In this document: one piece after another, positions 9,480 through 22,350 of the stretch
Numbering within the stretch: position 1 is the stretch's first letter
Layout of the letters: every line of letters starts with the position of its first letter
Source of the DNA: Kineosporia corallincola
GTDB taxonomy: Bacteria; Actinomycetota; Actinomycetes; Actinomycetales; Kineosporiaceae
Length of the DNA stretch: 64,000 bases
Assembly (NCBI RefSeq): GCF_018499875.1
Contig: NZ_JAHBAY010000003.1
Span: 124,001 to 188,000, forward strand
Direction: 5' to 3'
Notes under the pieces: generated by a model
Database searches by the model: none
Seen by the model: only the letters and a program-made list of their open reading frames with translations
What the model was told of the DNA's origin: nothing
Position numbers and translations under genes: made by a program

Positions 9480-10289
9480 TCAGGCCTCGGCCAGTTTCAC
9501 CCCGGCCGCGCGGATCGCCTCCGCGTCAGCCGGGGCCAGCGCCGAATCAGTGACGACGAGAGACAGGTCGCCCAGCTCGCAGACCCGGTACATGCCGAAC
9601 CGGCCGTACTTGGAACTGCCTGCCACCAGCACCGATTCGGTGGCGGCGGCCATCGCGGCGTGCTTCACGGCCACCTTGTCGGGGTAGGGGGTGGTCACCC
9701 CGCGGCGCAGGTCCCACGAGCTGCTGGAGATGAACGCCACGTCGAGGGCGATGCGCTCCAGCACCGCGGTGGCGAGCACCCCCACGCTGGAACGGTTCTG
9801 CCGGTCCACCGCACCGCCCACGTGGATCACCTCGATGTCGGCCTCGGAGACGAGCAGATCGTCGACGATCGCGAAATCGTTGGTGACGACGGTCATCCCC
9901 CGCAGCTCGACCAGGTGCGGCACCAGCTGGGCGATGGTGGTGCCGGCGTCGAGGTACACGGTCATCTGCTCGGTGAGCACCTCGGTGGCGGCCCGCGCCG
10001 CCATGGCCGCCTTCTCGGCCGGCTCCACCATCGACTTGTCGAGCCGCGACGCCTCGGCGGCCAGGTGCCGGCTGCCCGGTGCCCCGGCGATGCGCACACC
10101 GCCGGGCACCGGCACGACCCGGCCCTCCCGCTCGAGGGTGGCGATGTCGCGGCGCACCGTCATGTGCGACACCTCGAGCAGGTCGGTGAGCTGGTGCACC
10201 GACAGCACCCGCTCGCGCTGTAGGTGTTTCAGCAGCAACTCGCGACGCTGATCCGGGATCAGCGGGGTGTCCGTGGTTTCCTCACTCAT
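9480..10289 (-). CDS. DeoR/GlpR-family transcriptional regulator of the adjacent acid-sugar locus
   Basis: A 269-residue protein. The N-terminal DeoR helix-turn-helix reads RRELLLKHLQRERVLSVHQL then LLEVSHMTVRRDIATLEREG (residues 15-60). The C-terminal sugar-phosphate sensor domain has VYLDAGTTIAQLVPHL, MTVVTNDFAIVDDLL and FISSSSWDLRRGVTTP. DeoR regulators usually repress sugar catabolic genes and respond to a phosphorylated intermediate. It is the third gene of a minus-strand operon, 17 bases after the permease gene. It probably acts on the divergent region at 13.02-13.17 kb; the inducer is inferred to be a phosphorylated C4 acid. Confidence 0.88.
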   Translation of the reverse strand: MSEETTDTPLIPDQRRELLLKHLQRERVLSVHQLTDLLEVSHMTVRRDIATLEREGRVVPVPGGVRIAGAPGSRHLAAEASRLDKSMVEPAEKAAMAARAATEVLTEQMTVYLDAGTTIAQLVPHLVELRGMTVVTNDFAIVDDLLVSEADIEVIHVGGAVDRQNRSSVGVLATAVLERIALDVAFISSSSWDLRRGVTTPYPDKVAVKHAAMAAATESVLVAGSSKYGRFGMYRVCELGDLSLVVTDSALAPADAEAIRAAGVKLAEA

Positions 10290-15205: not shown

Positions 15206-15436
15206 TCATTGCGGCGCCGCCTCCGGCCGCACTATCACCGGCCGCACCACCCCTGGCCGCACCACCCCTGGCCGCACCACCCCTGGCCGCACCACCCCTG
15301 GCCGCACCACCATCGGCCGCACCGCCCCTGGTCGCACCACCATCGGCCGCACGGCCGCTGGTCGCACCACCATCGGCCGCACCGCCCCTGGCTGGAACGT
15401 GCGATTCGGTCTCATGTCTGGTCGTTCCTCGATCAC
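15206..15436 (-). CDS. Possible small pentapeptide-repeat ORF (VRPGV repeats), coupled to the epimerase gene
   Basis: GTG 15436 overlaps the stop of the upstream epimerase gene by 4 bases (GTGA). The 76 codons encode an N-terminal [14 protein letters not shown] followed by eleven 5-residue repeats of the form VRPGV / VRPMV, ending in VRPEAAPQ. The protein would be basic, proline-rich and extended. The coupling start is suggestive, but no ribosome-binding site or homologue is recognised and the plus strand is also open. Translation of the underlying 15-bp DNA repeat by chance is a real alternative. Confidence 0.25.
   Translation of the reverse strand: MIEERPDMRPNRTFQPGAVRPMVVRPAAVRPMVVRPGAVRPMVVRPGVVRPGVVRPGVVRPGVVRPVIVRPEAAPQ
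15225..15389. repeat. Eleven tandem 15-bp repeats
   Basis: Eleven consecutive 15-base units. Four units (15240-15299) are identical GGCCGCACCACCCCT; the others differ by 1-5 bases, with an alternating pattern of ...CCCCT and ...CCATC endings from 15300 onward. The period is exactly five codons, so all frames stay open. It lies between the 3' ends of the aldolase gene and the sugar-epimerase gene. Confidence 0.95.
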
Positions 15437-16404
15437 ACCTTGAGCCGATCCTCCTCCAGCTGGCGGAAGTGGTCGATGGTGGCGCGCAGCCCTTCGGCCA
15501 GGTCGACCCGGGGCGCCCAGCCGAGCACCCGCCGTGCCAGGGTGACCTCGGGACGGCGCACGCTCGGATCGTCCTCCGGCCGCTCCACCATCACGATCGG
15601 GCTGCTGGAGCCGGTCAGGTCGCGGATCATCACAGCCAGGTCGAGCATCGAGATCTCCTGTGGGTTACCGATGTTGATCGGCCCCGGGTGCCGGCTGAGC
15701 ATCAGCCGCCAGATGCCCTCGACCAGATCGTCCACGAACTGGATCGACCTGGTCTGTGAGCCGTCACCGGCCACGGTGATCGGTTCGCCCGCCAGCGCCT
15801 GCCGCACGAAGGTGGGCACGGCCCGTCCGTCGTGCGGGTTCATCCGCGGACCGTGGGTGTTGAAAATGCGGGCGATCGACGTGAGCACCCCGTGGGTGGT
15901 GCGGTAGGTGACCGTGAGAGCCTCGGCGAACCGCTTGGACTCGTCGTACACCGCCCGCGGGCCGACCGGGTTGACGTTGCCGAAATAGGTTTCTGGCTGC
16001 GGGTGCACGAGCGGGTCGCCGTAGGCCTCCGAGGTCGAGGCCAGCACGAACGAGGCGCCCTTGAGCCGGGCGAGTTCCAGGGCGTTCAGGGTGCCGATCG
16101 AGCCGACCTTCAGCGTCGCGATCGGCATCTGGAGGTAGGAGACGGGCGAGGCCGGTGAAGCGAAGTGCAGGACGGTGTCGACCCGCCCGGCCACCCGCAG
16201 GTACTCGCTGACGTCGGTGTCGAGCAGTTGGAAGGCCGGTCCGGCGTCGAGCAGGTGCTCGACGTTCTCAGAGCTTCCGGTGCAGAAGTTGTCGACGCAG
16301 ACCACTTCGTGGCCCTCGTGGAGCAGACGCTCGCACAGGTGCGATCCGAGGAAACCCGCACCCCCGGTGACGACCACGCGCGGCCGTGCCGCGGCCTTGT
16401 TCAT
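15433..16404 (-). CDS. NAD-dependent epimerase/dehydratase, UDP-glucuronate decarboxylase (UXS)-like
   Basis: A 323-residue extended SDR. The NAD-binding motif is [19 protein letters not shown] at the N-terminus, with Asp in [18 protein letters not shown] as in UXS enzymes. The active-site block is [18 protein letters not shown], with Tyr/Lys in [15 protein letters not shown]. The UXS-type [20 protein letters not shown] and [18 protein letters not shown] follow. UXS converts UDP-glucuronate to UDP-xylose; other NDP-sugar substrates are possible. It is fourth in line after the aminotransferase (10-base gap), suggesting that the pathway product is glycosylated or contains a sugar-derived part. 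Confidence 0.85.
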
Positions 16405-16414
16405 GGGTCCGTCC

Positions 16415-17656
16415 TCACTGACGTGTCGGTGTGAAGTGTTCGAGCCGGGCGCAGGCCTCGTCGAGCACAGCCTGCTGCTTGGCGAAGCAGAAGCGCAGAA
16501 GCCCGTCGCCGGCGTCGTTCTGGTAGAAGGCGCTGCCCGGAACCGCGGCCACCCCGGCTTCCCGCACCAGCGAGAGGGCTGCCTGGCGGGAGGTGGTATA
16601 CCCCCAGCCGGTCACGTCGGCCATGACGTAGTAAGCGCCTTCGGGCACGATGGGCCGGGCCCCGATCCGGTCGAGAACGCCGCACAGCTGATCGCGCTTG
16701 CGCTGGTAGTCGTCGGCCAGGGCGGTGAAATACGAGGGTGGGAGGCCGAATCCGGCTGTCACCCCGTGTTGCAGCGGAGTCGGTGCGCAGACGTAGTACA
16801 GATCGTTGACCAGGTTGATCGCCCGGGCCAGCGGCGCCGGTGCCGCGACGTAGCCGAGCCGCCAGCCGGTGATGCTGAACGTCTTCGACAGACCCGAGAT
16901 AGTGACGGTGCGGTCGTGGAGAGCGCCGACGGTCGCGGGTGAGATGTGCGGGCGGCCGTCGAAGCGGATGTACTCGTAGATCTCGTCGGTGATCACGAGC
17001 AGGTCGTGCCGGTGCGCCACCCGGGCCACGGCCTCCAGCTCGGCCCGCGAGAACATCCGGCCGCTGGGGTTGGCCGGGGTGCAGATGACGAGGGCGCGGG
17101 TGTTCGCCCGGACCGCGTCTTCCAGCGCCTGCTCGGTCAGCTCGAAGCCGGGCGCCCGCAGGGTGACGAACTGCGGCTCCAGACCGGCGATCACCGCCGA
17201 GCTGCGGTGGTACCCGTAGAAGGGTTCTGTGAGCAGGATGCCGTCACCCACGTCGAGCAGGGCGTTGACCGTCGCGGTGAAAGCCCCTGTGGCACCCACG
17301 GTCACGACGATCTCGTGGTCGGGGTCGGTGGTGATGCCGTTGTGGTGCTGGAGTTTGGTGGCGATCGCCTGCCGGAGGCCGATGTCTCCCTCCGGATAGC
17401 TGTAGGTGCTCAGACCGGCGTCCACCGCGGCCTTGGTGGCCTCGGCCACCGGCAGCGGGGTGGGCAGGTCGCAGATGCCCTGGGCGAGGTTGATCGCGCC
17501 GTGCCGGTCACTTTCCCGGCTCATCGCGCGGATGTCCGACAGCTCCAGCCCGTCGAGACGCCGGGACCGGGAGACACCCCGGCCCGCCGACCCCGTGTGC
17601 CGCTTCTCAGCCGTGGTTTTGAGACGTGCGTCGACATCATTCTGGGTGAACGGCAT
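16415..17656 (-). CDS. Class I/II pyridoxal-phosphate aminotransferase (aspartate aminotransferase fold)
   Basis: A 413-residue protein. ATG 17656 is preceded by AGGAGA at 17664-17669; the longer upstream frame is not supported. After a basic N-terminal tail it shows the fold-type I landmarks [82 protein letters not shown], and the PLP lysine in [19 protein letters not shown]. Donor and acceptor are unknown. It follows the SDR gene by 71 bases. Together with the alpha-oxoamine synthase it provides a second PLP enzyme in the same operon, which suggests either amino-donor supply or a second amination of the product. Confidence 0.88.
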
Positions 17657-17684
17657 GTGTGGTCTCCTGTTTCGGGCATCGACT

Positions 17685-17712
17685 GCTTCGCGTCCGGTGC
17701 TTCGCGTCCGGT
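17685..17712. repeat. 14-bp tandem duplication between SDR and aminotransferase genes
   Basis: GCTTCGCGTCCGGT is repeated twice without a gap at 17685-17698 and 17699-17712, within the 71-base spacer of the operon. Confidence 0.9.
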
Positions 17713-17727
17713 CGGAGTGCGGTGCGC

Positions 17728-18468
17728 TCATCGCATGAAAAGTCCGCCGTTGCAGTCGATCGTCTCGCCGGTGACGAAATCGCTGTCGACGAGAAACCTC
17801 ACCGTGCGCCCGACGTCCGTGACGGTTCCGGACCGCTTGAGCGGGGTGCTCTCGATGAACTGCCTCATCTTGGCCTCGGACGTGACCCGCTCGTGGAACC
17901 GGGTGTCGATGATCCCCGGCGCCACGGCGTTGACCCGGACCGTGGGGGCGAGTTCCTGGGCCGCGCCACGGGTGAAGCTGTCGATCGCCGCCTTCGACGC
18001 ACCGTAGGCGGTGGCCGACGGCGCTCCGTGGCGCATCGCGATCGACGTCATGTTGACCACGCAGGGGTTTTCGCCACCCCGCAGCAGGTCGGTACACAGA
18101 CCGGTGAGCCGCATGGTGGAGAACGTGTTGAGCGCGAAACTGGTTTCGAGGTGCCGCCAGGTGAGATCACCGACGGCCTGGCGCTCCACCATGCCGCCGG
18201 CGTTGTTCACCAGAACATCGAGGCGGGAGAAGATCCGCTGCACCTCTTTCACCAGGGCCACGCAACCGTCGTCGGTGGTCAGGTCGGCCTCGAACAGCGA
18301 GACGCTGCGGCTCACGCCGGCCAGCTCGGCCTGGAGTTCCGCGGCGGCCGCCCGGGAGGTGTGATGGTGGAGGAGCAGGTCGTTGCCCGCGGCCAGCTGC
18401 CGTGCCACCTCCGCCCCGATTCCTGAACCGGCACCGGTGATGAGGATCGACTTGGCCATCTGTCTCAC
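17728..18468 (-). CDS. Short-chain dehydrogenase/reductase (FabG-like)
   Basis: A 246-residue classical SDR. The NADP-binding motif is ILITGAGSGIGAEVARQLA, with LVNNAGGMVERQAVG, the catalytic Ser in VVNMTSIAMRHG, and Tyr/Lys in ATAYGASKAAIDSF, followed by VRVNAVAPGIIDT and a GETIDCNGG ending. GTG 18468 overlaps the FAD-enzyme stop (GTGA); ATG 18459 is an alternative start. Next to an alpha-oxoamine synthase, an SDR would reduce the amino ketone to an amino alcohol, as happens after serine palmitoyltransferase in sphingoid-base synthesis. That assignment is by context. Confidence 0.87.
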   Translation of the reverse strand: MRQMAKSILITGAGSGIGAEVARQLAAGNDLLLHHHTSRAAAAELQAELAGVSRSVSLFEADLTTDDGCVALVKEVQRIFSRLDVLVNNAGGMVERQAVGDLTWRHLETSFALNTFSTMRLTGLCTDLLRGGENPCVVNMTSIAMRHGAPSATAYGASKAAIDSFTRGAAQELAPTVRVNAVAPGIIDTRFHERVTSEAKMRQFIESTPLKRSGTVTDVGRTVRFLVDSDFVTGETIDCNGGLFMR

Positions 18469-19964
18469 GCGTCCCCGTGGTCGTGACCGGACTCCGCGGC
18501 GCCGGGCCAGGCCGGCCCCGGACCACCCACCCGGGCCGGATCACCCACCCGGGCCGCAGCGCTGCCGGCGAATCCTGGCGGAAAGCCGTGAGCGAGCAGC
18601 TCCGGCACCTTCATCGCCCGGGCGTGCTCCGTGGACCGGGCCAGCGCGGTGGCCGGGTCGCGCGCCCACGACGGCGTCTCGTCCCAGCACGGACGGCTGC
18701 CCTGCGCCAGCACCTCCGGCACCTCACCGGGCGACAGATGGCCGCGATCGGCCGAACGGCGCAGTGCCAGGCCCAGTTCGGTGCGGGCGTTGACCGCGCA
18801 CATGGTCCACTTGGGCAGCACGGTCATGCTGGCGCCCGGCCCCAGGTCGAAGACGCCGATGTTCCGACGCACCCGCGAGTCCGACACGGTGTTGATCGCG
18901 ATCTTCAGGTAGGTGCCGAGGATCTGCGAACGGGCCAGCTCGGGGTAGAACTCCCGCAGCCGCTCCAGTGTCCGGGCGGCACGGGCCGGCGCCTCCGGGT
19001 GCCCGCTGCTCAGATACTCGCGGTAGGCCGAGGGCGGAGCCCCGGTCTCCGGGTGCATGACCTCGTTCATCACGTGCGCCGCCGGCGGGTGGTAGATCAT
19101 GGCCACCGCCGGGCTGAGCGGGCTGAGCATGCCGCCGTACGCGTCTTCCAGCTTGAGACAGGTGAAGTTCTTGTCGGTGCCCTCGGGCAGATCGACATAC
19201 AGAATCTCGCGCAGGGCCATGAAGAGCCGCGGGAACGCGACCGCCGGATTCAGCCGCTTGGCCACGGCGAAAGCCGCTGTGCCGCAGCACAGGCTGATCT
19301 GGTCGGCGACGATCACCTGCCGCGAGCCGGCGGAATCGGCCGTCACCTCGTACCGCCCGTCGGAGCGGGTGGTGACCGAAGTGACCCGGGTGCCGGCCCG
19401 GAAGTCCACACTCGCCTGCCGCAGTTCCCACTCCAGCACGGTCGCGACCAGCACCGGATTCATCCCGCGCTGCGGCGTCAGGAACGCGGAGGCGACGTCG
19501 TTCACCCCCTCGACCGTCGGGATCTCCCGGCAGATGGCCGCCGGATCCCCGAAGACCGCGTTCGCCTCGTCCTCCGCGCAGCGCTGGGCGTAGTGCGACT
19601 CCAGCACCTTCATGTTGCTACGGCACTGGGCGACGATGTCGTGTCCGTCGTCCATCATGCTCTGGGACGCGATGATGCGGCTGTAGGTCTTTCCGCCGTA
19701 GATGAATTCGGGGAAGAAACGTTCGTTGACGATGCGGCCGTCGAGGCAGTCGCGGGCGCTGCGTGGGTCGAACGGGTACTCGGCGCCGCTGTGGTTCTCA
19801 CTGACGATGTTGCTGGTCTCGGTGCAGATCGGATGGGTCAGCGTGGAGCGCGCCTCCTGCTGCTCGCAGAGGATGACCTCGTACCCGGCCCGGCTGCGCA
19901 TGATGGCCGAGATACAGCCGGCGACACCGCCACCGATGACGACGTGCACTTCCCGGCGCTTCAT
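18465..19964 (-). CDS. FAD-dependent oxidoreductase of unknown substrate, in the alpha-oxoamine operon
   Basis: A 499-residue flavoprotein. The N-terminal dinucleotide fold is VHVVIGGGVAGCISAIMRSR followed by YEVILCEQQEA. A second FAD-contact strand lies at VIVADQISLCCGTAAFAVAK. The segment between (THPICTETSNIVSENHSG, DGRIVNERFFPEFIYGGKTY) and the aromatic-rich middle are not typical of any oxidase I can name. The last 60 residues are Gly/Pro/Ala-rich (residues from about 445) and probably disordered. The ATG overlaps the alpha-oxoamine synthase stop by 4 bases and its own stop overlaps the SDR start, so the three proteins are made together. DAO-like amine oxidase or halogenase/monooxygenase chemistry are possible alternatives. 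Confidence 0.72.
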   Translation of the reverse strand: MKRREVHVVIGGGVAGCISAIMRSRAGYEVILCEQQEARSTLTHPICTETSNIVSENHSGAEYPFDPRSARDCLDGRIVNERFFPEFIYGGKTYSRIIASQSMMDDGHDIVAQCRSNMKVLESHYAQRCAEDEANAVFGDPAAICREIPTVEGVNDVASAFLTPQRGMNPVLVATVLEWELRQASVDFRAGTRVTSVTTRSDGRYEVTADSAGSRQVIVADQISLCCGTAAFAVAKRLNPAVAFPRLFMALREILYVDLPEGTDKNFTCLKLEDAYGGMLSPLSPAVAMIYHPPAAHVMNEVMHPETGAPPSAYREYLSSGHPEAPARAARTLERLREFYPELARSQILGTYLKIAINTVSDSRVRRNIGVFDLGPGASMTVLPKWTMCAVNARTELGLALRRSADRGHLSPGEVPEVLAQGSRPCWDETPSWARDPATALARSTEHARAMKVPELLAHGFPPGFAGSAAARVGDPARVGGPGPAWPGAAESGHDHGDA

Positions 19965-21220
19965 TCGAGACCTTCTCCCTGGCCGATGGTCGCGTACTTG
20001 TCACGCAGCGAGCGCAGGGCCGAGGCCACGCCCCGGACGTCTTGCTCGGAGTGGTTCGCCGCCAGGCACAGGCGCAGCTGAGCCGAGCGCCGCCGCACGA
20101 TGGGGAAGAACACCACGGATGCGAAGTAGCCTGCATCCAGTAGCTCTTCGCCGGCCGAGAGCGCATCCGCCTCGTCGCCGATCGGGACCATCCGGATCGG
20201 GCTGAACGGCAGCGACTGCCCCATCAGCTCGTCGAACAGGGCCACCCGGTCTCGCAGTTGCCGCTGGAGCGGCGGGACGGCGCCCTGACGGTGCAGTTCC
20301 ACCACGGCCCGGCAGGACTCGACGGCCTGGAAGGTCTGCGCGGCCGAGAACGAGTAGATCTGGCCGTAGGAGCGCACCAGCCGCTCCCAGCGTTCGTCGG
20401 GCACCAGTAGCCCTCCGCCGTAGGCACCGAAACCCTTGGACAGGGAGAAGGTGAGGATCAGCCGGTCGGAGTGGCCGCCGTCGAGGGCGCTCAGCATCAG
20501 GCCCTCACCGCGCTCGCCGAAGATGGTCATGCCGTGCGCGTCGTCGACGTAGAGGTAGAAGTCCAGTTCCTCGGCCAGGGCGACGAGTTCACGCACCGGT
20601 GCCAGGCCGCCCATCGAGTAGATGCCGTCGGCCACGTAGACCGGCGTCTCACCTCGCTGTCTCGCCGCGACCACCTCGGACCGGAGCGCATCCAGCGAGT
20701 TGTGCGGCACGGTCAGCACGGTCGCCTCGGTGGCCAGCACCGGTTTGAGGTACTGCATGGAGGAGTGCGCGAACTGGTCGAAGATGAGCGTGACCGCGGG
20801 CGGATCGGATTCGTTGATGAGTACCCCGCTGGCCAGCAGCGGCATGATCGAGATGTGTGCCGCCGAGGTGGAGGGGAACGTGATCACCCGCCCCCGGTAG
20901 AGCTCGGACAGATCTTCTTCGAGCTGCCGCTGCGGCTCGATCGAGAACCGCGAGCGCGCACAGCAGAAGTTTGAACCCCACTGTTCGCCAACGGATTTGG
21001 ATGCCCTGATCACAGCTGGATGGAGATCCAGCCCGAGATAGGAGCAGTTGACGAACTCGACGACCTCACGCCCGCCGGGCAGGGTCACCTGCTTGCCGTC
21101 ACGCCCCACGATGCTGACCTGCATGAGATTGCTGTTGATGGCCCGGGCATAGTTCGCCGTGGATTCACGGACCATGAAGGGCGTGTTCCGAAGCCTGCTG
21201 CCACGCGCGGTCGACGTCAT
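19961..21220 (-). CDS. Alpha-oxoamine synthase family PLP enzyme (KBL/BioF/CqsA-like)
   Basis: A 419-residue protein. ATG 21220 follows a GGGGGA site; a longer open frame upstream is unlikely. Family landmarks are EFVNCSYLGLDLHPAVIRAS, a CCARSRFSIEPQRQLEEDL segment, the phosphate-binding ITFPSTSAAHIS, YVADGIYSMGGLAPVRELV, the aspartate/histidine DFYLYVDDAHGMTIFGERG, and the PLP-binding Lys262 in TFSLSKGFGAYGGGLLV. These enzymes condense an amino acid with an acyl-thioester, losing CO2, to make an alpha-amino ketone. BioF, glycine C-acetyltransferase, serine palmitoyltransferase and the autoinducer synthase CqsA belong here. No bio, threonine or sphingolipid partner genes are present, so a dedicated secondary product is inferred. 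It is the first gene of the operon. Confidence 0.85.
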   Translation of the reverse strand: MTSTARGSRLRNTPFMVRESTANYARAINSNLMQVSIVGRDGKQVTLPGGREVVEFVNCSYLGLDLHPAVIRASKSVGEQWGSNFCCARSRFSIEPQRQLEEDLSELYRGRVITFPSTSAAHISIMPLLASGVLINESDPPAVTLIFDQFAHSSMQYLKPVLATEATVLTVPHNSLDALRSEVVAARQRGETPVYVADGIYSMGGLAPVRELVALAEELDFYLYVDDAHGMTIFGERGEGLMLSALDGGHSDRLILTFSLSKGFGAYGGGLLVPDERWERLVRSYGQIYSFSAAQTFQAVESCRAVVELHRQGAVPPLQRQLRDRVALFDELMGQSLPFSPIRMVPIGDEADALSAGEELLDAGYFASVVFFPIVRRRSAQLRLCLAANHSEQDVRGVASALRSLRDKYATIGQGEGLE

Positions 21221-22350
21221 CGAGATCCCCCGAACGATGAAAGATGCACCACCCCCGACAGCCTCGGCTGCCACCGGCGCACGAGACGAGCGCCCGGGTG
21301 CGTAGTTCAGTAGACGCCATCCGCCAGAGCTAATCAAGAGGCATGAATGAATTCACGGCCCGCTCTCTGCATCACCCCTCACCTGAGCGCACATCAGCTG
21401 CCAGGCAGCAGGATTCACCTGCGCGCCGACGGGATGCCCATCTTTGGATGACACGCATCCATGGCCATCACATGCGACACGCATTGGTGCACTTCCGAAT
21501 TCATGAAAGCCATGGAAACACTTTCGAATTGCACGATCTGATGAATCCTTCAGCGGGCGATTCAAAATCGCTCTTTTGCAAGCCATTTGATTCGTGGTTC
21601 ACCAAATACTTTACGCTGCAAGCAGGGCTGTGGCCATGGACTCGTCGCTCTCCCCTTCGAAGGACCGAACCGAAGGAGTGTCGTGCCGGTGAACCAGGGG
21701 GTCCGGCCGGTGACGGAAAGGCTCCGGAAGACTCGCCCCGTCCTCACTCTGCCCCCGGCACCGGAGGCAACGAAAGTGACACCGCTGGAAGGCGAGGTCT
21801 CCGATCAGGATGCCGCCCGGGCGGCGGTATCGCCCTGCGGATCGCGTCCGACAGCGGCACCGCGAAGATGCCGGCATGACAGGCCGGCTCATGACCGAGC
21901 CGCGCCTTGCCGGTGACCCGATGGGAGGCACCGTCCGAACCGGAACCTCAGAGCGCGGAGCCGGACGACTCAGGCGCACACAGCTCGGCCGGGCTGCCAC
22001 CTACCCGGCGCACCTCGCCGAGGCCACCACAGGTCCCGCCGCGCCCAGCACCTCCGAGCCGTCCCAGGCCGGCACACGCCCCCTCCGCCCGCCCACCGAC
22101 GATGCGACGGGGAGCACCCCGCCCCTGGTCCGGAAGGGACGATCACACGGAGCACCGCCCAGCCGCACGCGAGGTCGTCCGCCCCGCGACGAAAGCGGCC
22201 CCTTCCACAACCGCCCGACGCCGTCGAGGTCAGGACCCCGAACGACAGGACCGATGCCCCGCCCCCAGGGGTCCGGCTACCCGGGCAGAGGACACGGAGA
22301 AGGAGCACAAGGTCACGGGGACCCGGCTTGCGTCGTCTTCAATTCTGCCC
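21221..22350. other. 1.1-kb gene-poor region upstream of the oxoamine operon with a low-GC core
   Basis: No convincing gene is seen. The part at about 21340-21640 is clearly less GC-rich than the rest of the window, with runs such as GAAACACTTTCGAATTGCA and CCAAATACTTTACGC. It contains two short perfect palindromes: GCTGCC-A-GGCAGC at 21397-21409 and GCGATT-CAA-AATCGC at 21557-21571. The remaining 700 bases are GC-rich; open frames there have no recognisable product. The low-GC part is the likely promoter/operator area for the minus-strand operon starting at 21220. It could also mark a junction of transferred DNA. Confidence 0.5.

Follow-up and report, generated by a model that had tools for sequence, protein, structure and literature searches.

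The five-gene locus

Five open reading frames run head to tail on the minus strand of the 64-kb stretch of DNA analysed here (the window), from position 21220 down to 15433, and all of them are open throughout. The first (19961..21220) encodes an alpha-oxoamine synthase, or AOS; the second (18465..19964), a FAD-dependent oxidoreductase of the DAO type; the third (17728..18468), a classical SDR oxidoreductase; the fourth (16415..17731, its start being either 17731 or 17656), a PLP-dependent, fold-type I aminotransferase, or AT; and the fifth (15433..16404), a protein that by homology is a UDP-glucuronate decarboxylase/UDP-xylose synthase, or UXS. The initial annotation proposed this arrangement, and Pfam and NCBIfam back each of its broad labels. 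If the longest likely starts are used, the AOS/FAD, FAD/SDR and SDR/AT junctions are 4-base overlaps—three, rather than the two first counted—and a 10-base gap separates AT from UXS, as had been reported. The start codons of AOS, SDR and AT are not certain, however. A codon-score gene caller prefers 21175, 18459 and 17656, respectively; the second of these would remove the FAD/SDR overlap, and the third would leave 71 bases between SDR and AT.

Upstream of AOS there is a 1.1-kb stretch (21221..22350) in which the gene call has no convincing gene and Rfam finds no match, and which may hold a putative promoter for the operon. The flank above the cassette contains a gene for an LLM-class oxidoreductase, then tpiA, pgk and gap; the flank below contains a 3-oxo-tetronate kinase gene, a decarboxylase-like gene and GntP. 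Both flanks look unrelated to the cassette. The host genome is an 8.2-Mb draft in 53 contigs.

The alpha-oxoamine synthase

In the AOS, the motif around the PLP lysine (Lys262, within SLSKGF, exactly where it was first placed) is kept, and so are DDAHG (226-230), FAHSS (150-154) and LRLCLAANH (382-390) with its C-terminal arginine; we take the last three to serve their customary functions. The Pfam family of the protein is Aminotran_1_2. Among NCBIfam models it passes only that of the PRK07505 subfamily (NF005697; 379 bits, cut-off 342), which is wide and uncharacterised. BioF, glycine C-acetyltransferase (KBL), SPT, ALAS and CqsA have the fold family and the PLP lysine in common with it, and by inference the type of reaction, but their curated cut-offs are all missed. 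The scores are 152 bits against 426 for BioF (TIGR00858); 126 against 460 and 101 against 493 for KBL (NF005394 and TIGR01822); 114, 93 and 76 against 500, 640 and 670 for SPT (NF047599, NF047600 and NF047603); 84 against 339 for ALAS (TIGR01821); and 72 against 428 for the CqsA type (NF005526).

A tree of 25 rows, in which BioF, KBL, ALAS, PRK07505 and Alb29 are represented and SPT and CqsA are not, separates the PRK07505/Alb29 side from the BioF/KBL/ALAS side at 100/100. The AOS therefore stands apart from the BioF, KBL and ALAS rows, and clusters with neither BioF nor glycine C-acetyltransferase, so the outcome by which the initial annotation would have been refuted did not occur. Six AOSs, from this cassette and the five others described below, form a single clade (100/100), within which that of the window is sister to that of the genome we call G891 (97/98). 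The clade lies inside a larger one with Alb29, an enzyme of the albogrisin pathway of Streptomyces albogriseolus. Unlike the cassette AOSs, Alb29 groups with two other PRK07505 rows, outside them, and it is by AOS alone that the two systems are likened here. The nearest solved structures are four near-identical chains in PDB (186 bits; the best KBL scores 90 bits), one of which, 8xha, is identified as Alb29 in PMC11906848. Alb29 is reported to work with L-Glu and acyl-CoAs (PMC10230504, PMC11906848). At the specificity position the AOS has Cys or Ala, depending on an alignment that is ambiguous there, and as we read it this residue does not name the amino acid used. The claim that the locus has no known counterpart survives in part: no characterised one was found, but the AOS does have kin, in the PRK07505 subfamily and on the Alb29 side of the tree.

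The FAD enzyme, the SDR and the aminotransferase

The FAD enzyme matches PF01266 at 47 bits (cut-off 27.9), and it served as the marker of the cassette in genome searches. No close solved relative was found in PDB, where the best sequence match is weak and partial (E 0.002 over 62 positions), and a structure prediction from a 4-row alignment gave an unusable model (mean pLDDT 32.4). The SDR matches PF13561 at 162 bits and has catalytic-type motifs: GxxxGIG, NNAGG and S..YxxxK. So does the AT—GLSKTF and LRFCFAK—which matches Aminotran_1_2 at 192 bits. Among the best 25 of its 88 NCBIfam matches the AT reaches no cut-off, the top scores being 327 for PRK08912 (cut-off 498), 324 for PRK07777 (553) and 295 for GntC (415).

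Distribution of the cassette

The species collection of GTDB r220 was scanned by pattern for the FAD enzyme, a method that detects close relatives only; of 25 candidate stretches, three loci contain the enzyme, and they belong to Streptomyces lushanensis, S. gossypii and S. dioscori. Genome samples, which overlap, were searched as well. Among 396 genomes of the phylum, the host's own strong match is accompanied by three weak, partial matches to flavoproteins; among 13 genomes of the host family, by one weak match; and five congeners of the host have none. Two of 394 genomes of the class contain the enzyme (the host and G891), one of 35 in the family of G891, and two of 392 in the genus of S. 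dioscori, here g9 (S. dioscori itself and a genome we call G473). In an AOS search of 148 class genomes, through which G891 came to light, nine have a match at 1e-30, and above 35% identity there are only the AOSs of the window and G891. In 72,556 plasmid records the FAD enzyme has no match at E 1e-5, and matches to the AOS are all less than 60% identical (39-42% for the best 20).

There are, then, six genomes with the FAD enzyme: the host, S. lushanensis, S. gossypii, S. dioscori, G473 and G891. AOS, FAD and SDR genes adjoin in all six, and AT and UXS genes are present, too, in five. The AOS, FAD, SDR and AT proteins of the window are 67-75% identical to those of the four Streptomyces-type cassettes (68-72% for the AT, in three of them). 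Linkage of the neighbours in relatives, which the initial annotation had suggested looking for, is thus found, and that five other genomes have the first three genes side by side, four of them with all five, is more than chance would produce. The five-gene set as originally described holds less uniformly than its core. G891 has AOS, FAD and SDR (77%, 64% and 66% identical to those of the window) followed by hemB, and nothing else of the cassette, so AT and UXS are dispensable in some versions. An aminotransferase gene next to the G891 cassette was considered as a part of it and rejected: its product is close to the common family PRK07777 (522 bits, cut-off 553) and 37% identical to the AT of the window. 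The Streptomyces types, for their part, have extra genes, a RarD/EamA exporter in all four and Ugd (UDP-glucose dehydrogenase) in three; a thioesterase-M20 fusion occurs in two of the six loci. None of these three—RarD, Ugd or the fusion—has a match in the 64-kb window. The conserved core is AOS-FAD-SDR, and the full set is rare but conserved. Its patchy occurrence, absent from the five congeners of the host and from 34 of the 35 genomes in the family of G891, fits horizontal transfer, which would account for the pattern.

What such a cassette might be for can be approached through its neighbours. In the window these include, as noted, genes of sugar-acid catabolism, and three PRK07505-type genes of rhizobia and Agrobacterium lie near acetolactate synthase genes. 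The cassette could accordingly be imagined as a catabolic or housekeeping operon, as perhaps are the PRK07505 members beside rhizobial acetolactate synthase and aminotransferase genes. We consider this very unlikely. The flanks, named by eye, differ from one cassette genome to another, the rhizobial AOSs fall outside the cassette clade, and Ugd/UXS and an exporter would be unexpected company in a catabolic set.

A second possibility is that the product is an amino unit with which some larger molecule, such as a polyketide, is started or built. In G473 it lies between type I PKS genes, large ones, and beside a thioesterase gene; directly upstream of the S. dioscori AOS gene are ones for a P450 and a type III PKS-like protein; and the thioesterase-M20 fusion of two loci could be read in the same way. 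The statement that there is no PKS or NRPS nearby therefore applies to the window, in whose gene call none was recognised (a judgement made by eye on gene sizes and opening residues), and not to G473. But the PKS genes of G473 may be unrelated neighbours, and no type I PKS or NRPS was recognised by eye in the window or in some 60 kb around each of the S. gossypii and S. dioscori cassettes. On balance, a building-block role seems rather unlikely to us, and we favour a self-contained pathway for a small molecule.

Two lineages of UXS

The fifth protein was initially called an epimerase. It scores 345 bits with human UDP-glucuronate decarboxylase (UXS1) in PDB, where no epimerase entry exceeds 149 bits, and UXS is the closest among solved SDRs. 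STSE, YDESK (YxxxK) and RRPE, with the conserved Arg, are all present; their roles are presumably those of a UXS. By homology, then, the gene would encode a UDP-glucuronate decarboxylase/UDP-xylose synthase, and the epimerase label should be dropped.

This gene appears to have a history of its own. The UXS of the window is 53-56% identical to those of the four Streptomyces-type cassettes, and up to 71% identical to other actinobacterial UXSs. The gene order differs as well, AT-UXS in the window and UXS-AT in the other four. In a tree of 37 rows the UXSs of the four Streptomyces-type cassettes fall together with human UXS1 (100/100), and that of the window groups with general actinobacterial UXSs (90/79); the bootstrap had not settled, and the rows, being best-scoring loci, over-represent UXSs like that of the window and omit seven from genus g9. 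The seven g9 genomes concerned have a UXS at 56-62% identity, and the notion that Streptomyces lacks any other UXS, which we entertained for a time, extends no further than the four cassette genomes, searched at E 1e-40. The host itself carries another UXS as well, 64% identical; judged by eye, its surroundings resemble a polysaccharide locus.

From these sequences it would seem that UXS was not inherited together with AOS, FAD, SDR and AT, but joined them twice, or was displaced. Either event suggests that UXS activity is wanted in the pathway. UXS is common, being matched at 1e-75 in 99 of 197 class genomes, but only once or twice in each; that two different UXSs should lie beside the same cassette by chance is therefore unlikely.

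A hemB gene in the G891 cassette

Some 60-160 bases after the SDR gene of G891, depending on an uncertain start, there is an intact hemB on the same strand (443 bits, cut-off 297). The native hem genes of G891 are elsewhere: glutamyl-tRNA reductase (hemA), hemC and a hemD/methyltransferase-like gene, followed by an 82-residue remnant of hemB. Ten of 12 congeners have a single hemB match, in each case no more than 300 bases downstream of the hemD-like gene, and the other two have none; none of the 12 has a match to the FAD enzyme. One of these congeners has a HemD protein 98.5% identical to that of G891. The cassette HemB is 63-66% identical to the HemBs of congeners and 69-73% identical to those of the other five cassette genomes, and it looks, from these figures, foreign. 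It differs from all 15 HemBs with which it was compared at seven positions, and from 14 of the 15 at four more. The private positions include some in KYASG and TYQVDT; the change in KYASG, at a position where all 15 have Ala, adjoins the lysine that we take to form the Schiff base.

One explanation is that AOS, FAD and SDR make a mimic of 5-aminolevulinate (ALA) that blocks HemB, and that the hemB of G891 is an insensitive copy that has displaced the native one. There is a precedent of sorts in alaremycin, the pathway to which reportedly begins with an ALA-synthase-like AOS and includes a DMT-type exporter. To our knowledge that pathway has no FAD or UXS partners, and the cassette, unlike it, has no acetyltransferase. 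Alaremycin, from Streptomyces sp. A012304, is described in reviews as a small, ALA-like antibiotic that acts on HemB; it displaces ALA in PbgS (PMC12670364). The exchange of an intact, foreign-looking hemB for a native gene reduced to a remnant, and the altered KYASG, are what one might expect of resistance. The number of private changes is ordinary, however—11 in the cassette HemB, and 10, 10, 10, 10 and 2 in those of the other five cassette genomes—so it is the place of the changes that is suggestive rather than their number, and the argument is slightly weakened. Moreover, hemB is present in just one of the six cassettes. In the five remaining cassette genomes HemB carries consensus residues, and two of them also encode, away from the cassette, a distant HemB-like protein (30-34%). 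HemB could be a passenger, there being a transposase-like gene near it, or a biosynthetic enzyme, and no ALA analogue has been seen. We regard the mimic as an unlikely explanation. The hemB swap is a hint, not proof, that the product acts on porphobilinogen synthase.

A broader version would make AOS-FAD-SDR a new, mobile route to an ALA-mimicking antimetabolite, against which G891 would be protected by its insensitive HemB, and the lineages with AT and UXS by xylosylation plus RarD export. This we think slightly less likely again. Were an ALA mimic the product after all, the cassettes would represent a family of antibiotics that signature-based cluster finders could miss.

A possible pathway

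The reading we prefer is a simpler one: the cassette is an operon, spread horizontally, that makes a single small and polar metabolite with an amino group, and does so without PKS or NRPS. The comparisons above make this reasonably probable. The AOS would bind an amino acid on PLP and join it, in a Claisen-type reaction, to an acyl thioester from primary metabolism, with loss of CO2 and release of an alpha-aminoketone; neither an acyl ligase nor a carrier protein is found among the five genes. The SDR would reduce a ketone to an alcohol, the DAO-type FAD enzyme would oxidise a C-N or C-OH bond, and the AT would install a second amine or, alternatively, make an unusual amino acid for the AOS. 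UXS would supply UDP-xylose or UDP-4-keto-xylose, the source of a tailoring sugar attached by an enzyme encoded elsewhere. In the Streptomyces versions, the RarD/EamA protein might export the product and Ugd might feed UXS. The substrates, the order of the steps, the transfer of sugar and the spread between species are all things we infer, and so is the biological role, for which a secreted antimetabolite is most likely.

The sugar step counts against this reading, since no cassette has a glycosyltransferase among its contiguous genes. In G473 a glycosyltransferase-like gene was seen, by eye, about 16 kb away. The everninomicin cluster, an oligosaccharide cluster, has glycosyltransferases, and differs from the cassette in this. 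Its glucuronic acid decarboxylase, EvdS6, is actinobacterial and UXS-type, like the cassette enzyme, sits in an antibiotic cluster, and yields both xylose and 4-keto-xylose (PMC10338323).

The cassette is real, and it probably specifies a small-molecule pathway that is undescribed. No description of such a cluster was recognised, by title and opening of abstract, in an open-access collection that leaves most subscription journals outside its coverage. Natural products that begin with an AOS are known already—albogrisin and ketomemicin are examples (PMC11906848)—so the kind is familiar, and it is the combination of genes that appears new.

If the interpretation is correct, a compact, AOS-started pathway with no need of PKS or NRPS is conserved in three actinobacterial families, in the form of five genes and 5.8 kb that could be expressed whole. 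The hemB swap in G891 offers a target for the product that can be tested. Alpha-oxoamine synthase chemistry would then extend beyond primary metabolism, and beyond the few natural-product cases known.

Genes beside the cassette and beside homologues of its parts

Between positions 9480 and 15172 of the window, downstream of the UXS gene, lies a sugar-acid catabolism gene set, comprising a DeoR-family-type regulator, a GntP permease, a DRL-type oxidoreductase, a 3-oxo-tetronate kinase and a class II aldolase-type decarboxylase. A repeat array (15223–15392), in which a GC-rich unit of 15 bases recurs approximately 11 times, separates the decarboxylase-like gene from the UXS stop codon. The window's genome has a second UXS (L031, G000:C4), the neighbours of which resemble, by eye, glycosyltransferase and polysaccharide genes.

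Near two of the Streptomyces-type cassettes lie polyketide synthase (PKS) or PKS-like genes. In G473, a cassette-bearing genome from the genus of S. dioscori (L012, L016, L017), the PKS gene on one flank includes a nitronate-monooxygenase-like domain; on the opposite flank, a thioesterase and an MFS-like gene accompany large type I PKS genes. In S. dioscori itself, P450 and type III PKS-like genes (L013:13602–15938) lie directly upstream of the cassette, on the other strand.

Further AOS settings occur on plasmids. A different AOS lineage on Burkholderia glumae p39s2p (L071) adjoins a DAO-type FAD enzyme, BioB, a carbamoyltransferase and a type I PKS; and on rhizobial and Agrobacterium plasmids (L024, L025, L070), acetolactate synthase and aspartate-aminotransferase-family genes are close to a PRK07505-type AOS. 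The N-terminal half of an 824-residue protein (L037:1405–3879) is also PRK07505-like; the protein has no Pfam match at 1e-3.

hemB loci in G891 and S. dioscori

The hemB match in S. dioscori (L047) contains one internal TGA in the search output and none in a separate alignment of the same match; because of the latter, the TGA may be an edge effect. G891, the relative in which hemB accompanies the AOS–FAD–SDR core, carries an intact, apparently foreign, cassette-linked hemB (L041:8529–9530), and of its native hemB, downstream of a hemD-like gene, only a fragment (L052:9624–9869). Ten of 12 congeners of G891 have hemB at the native place.
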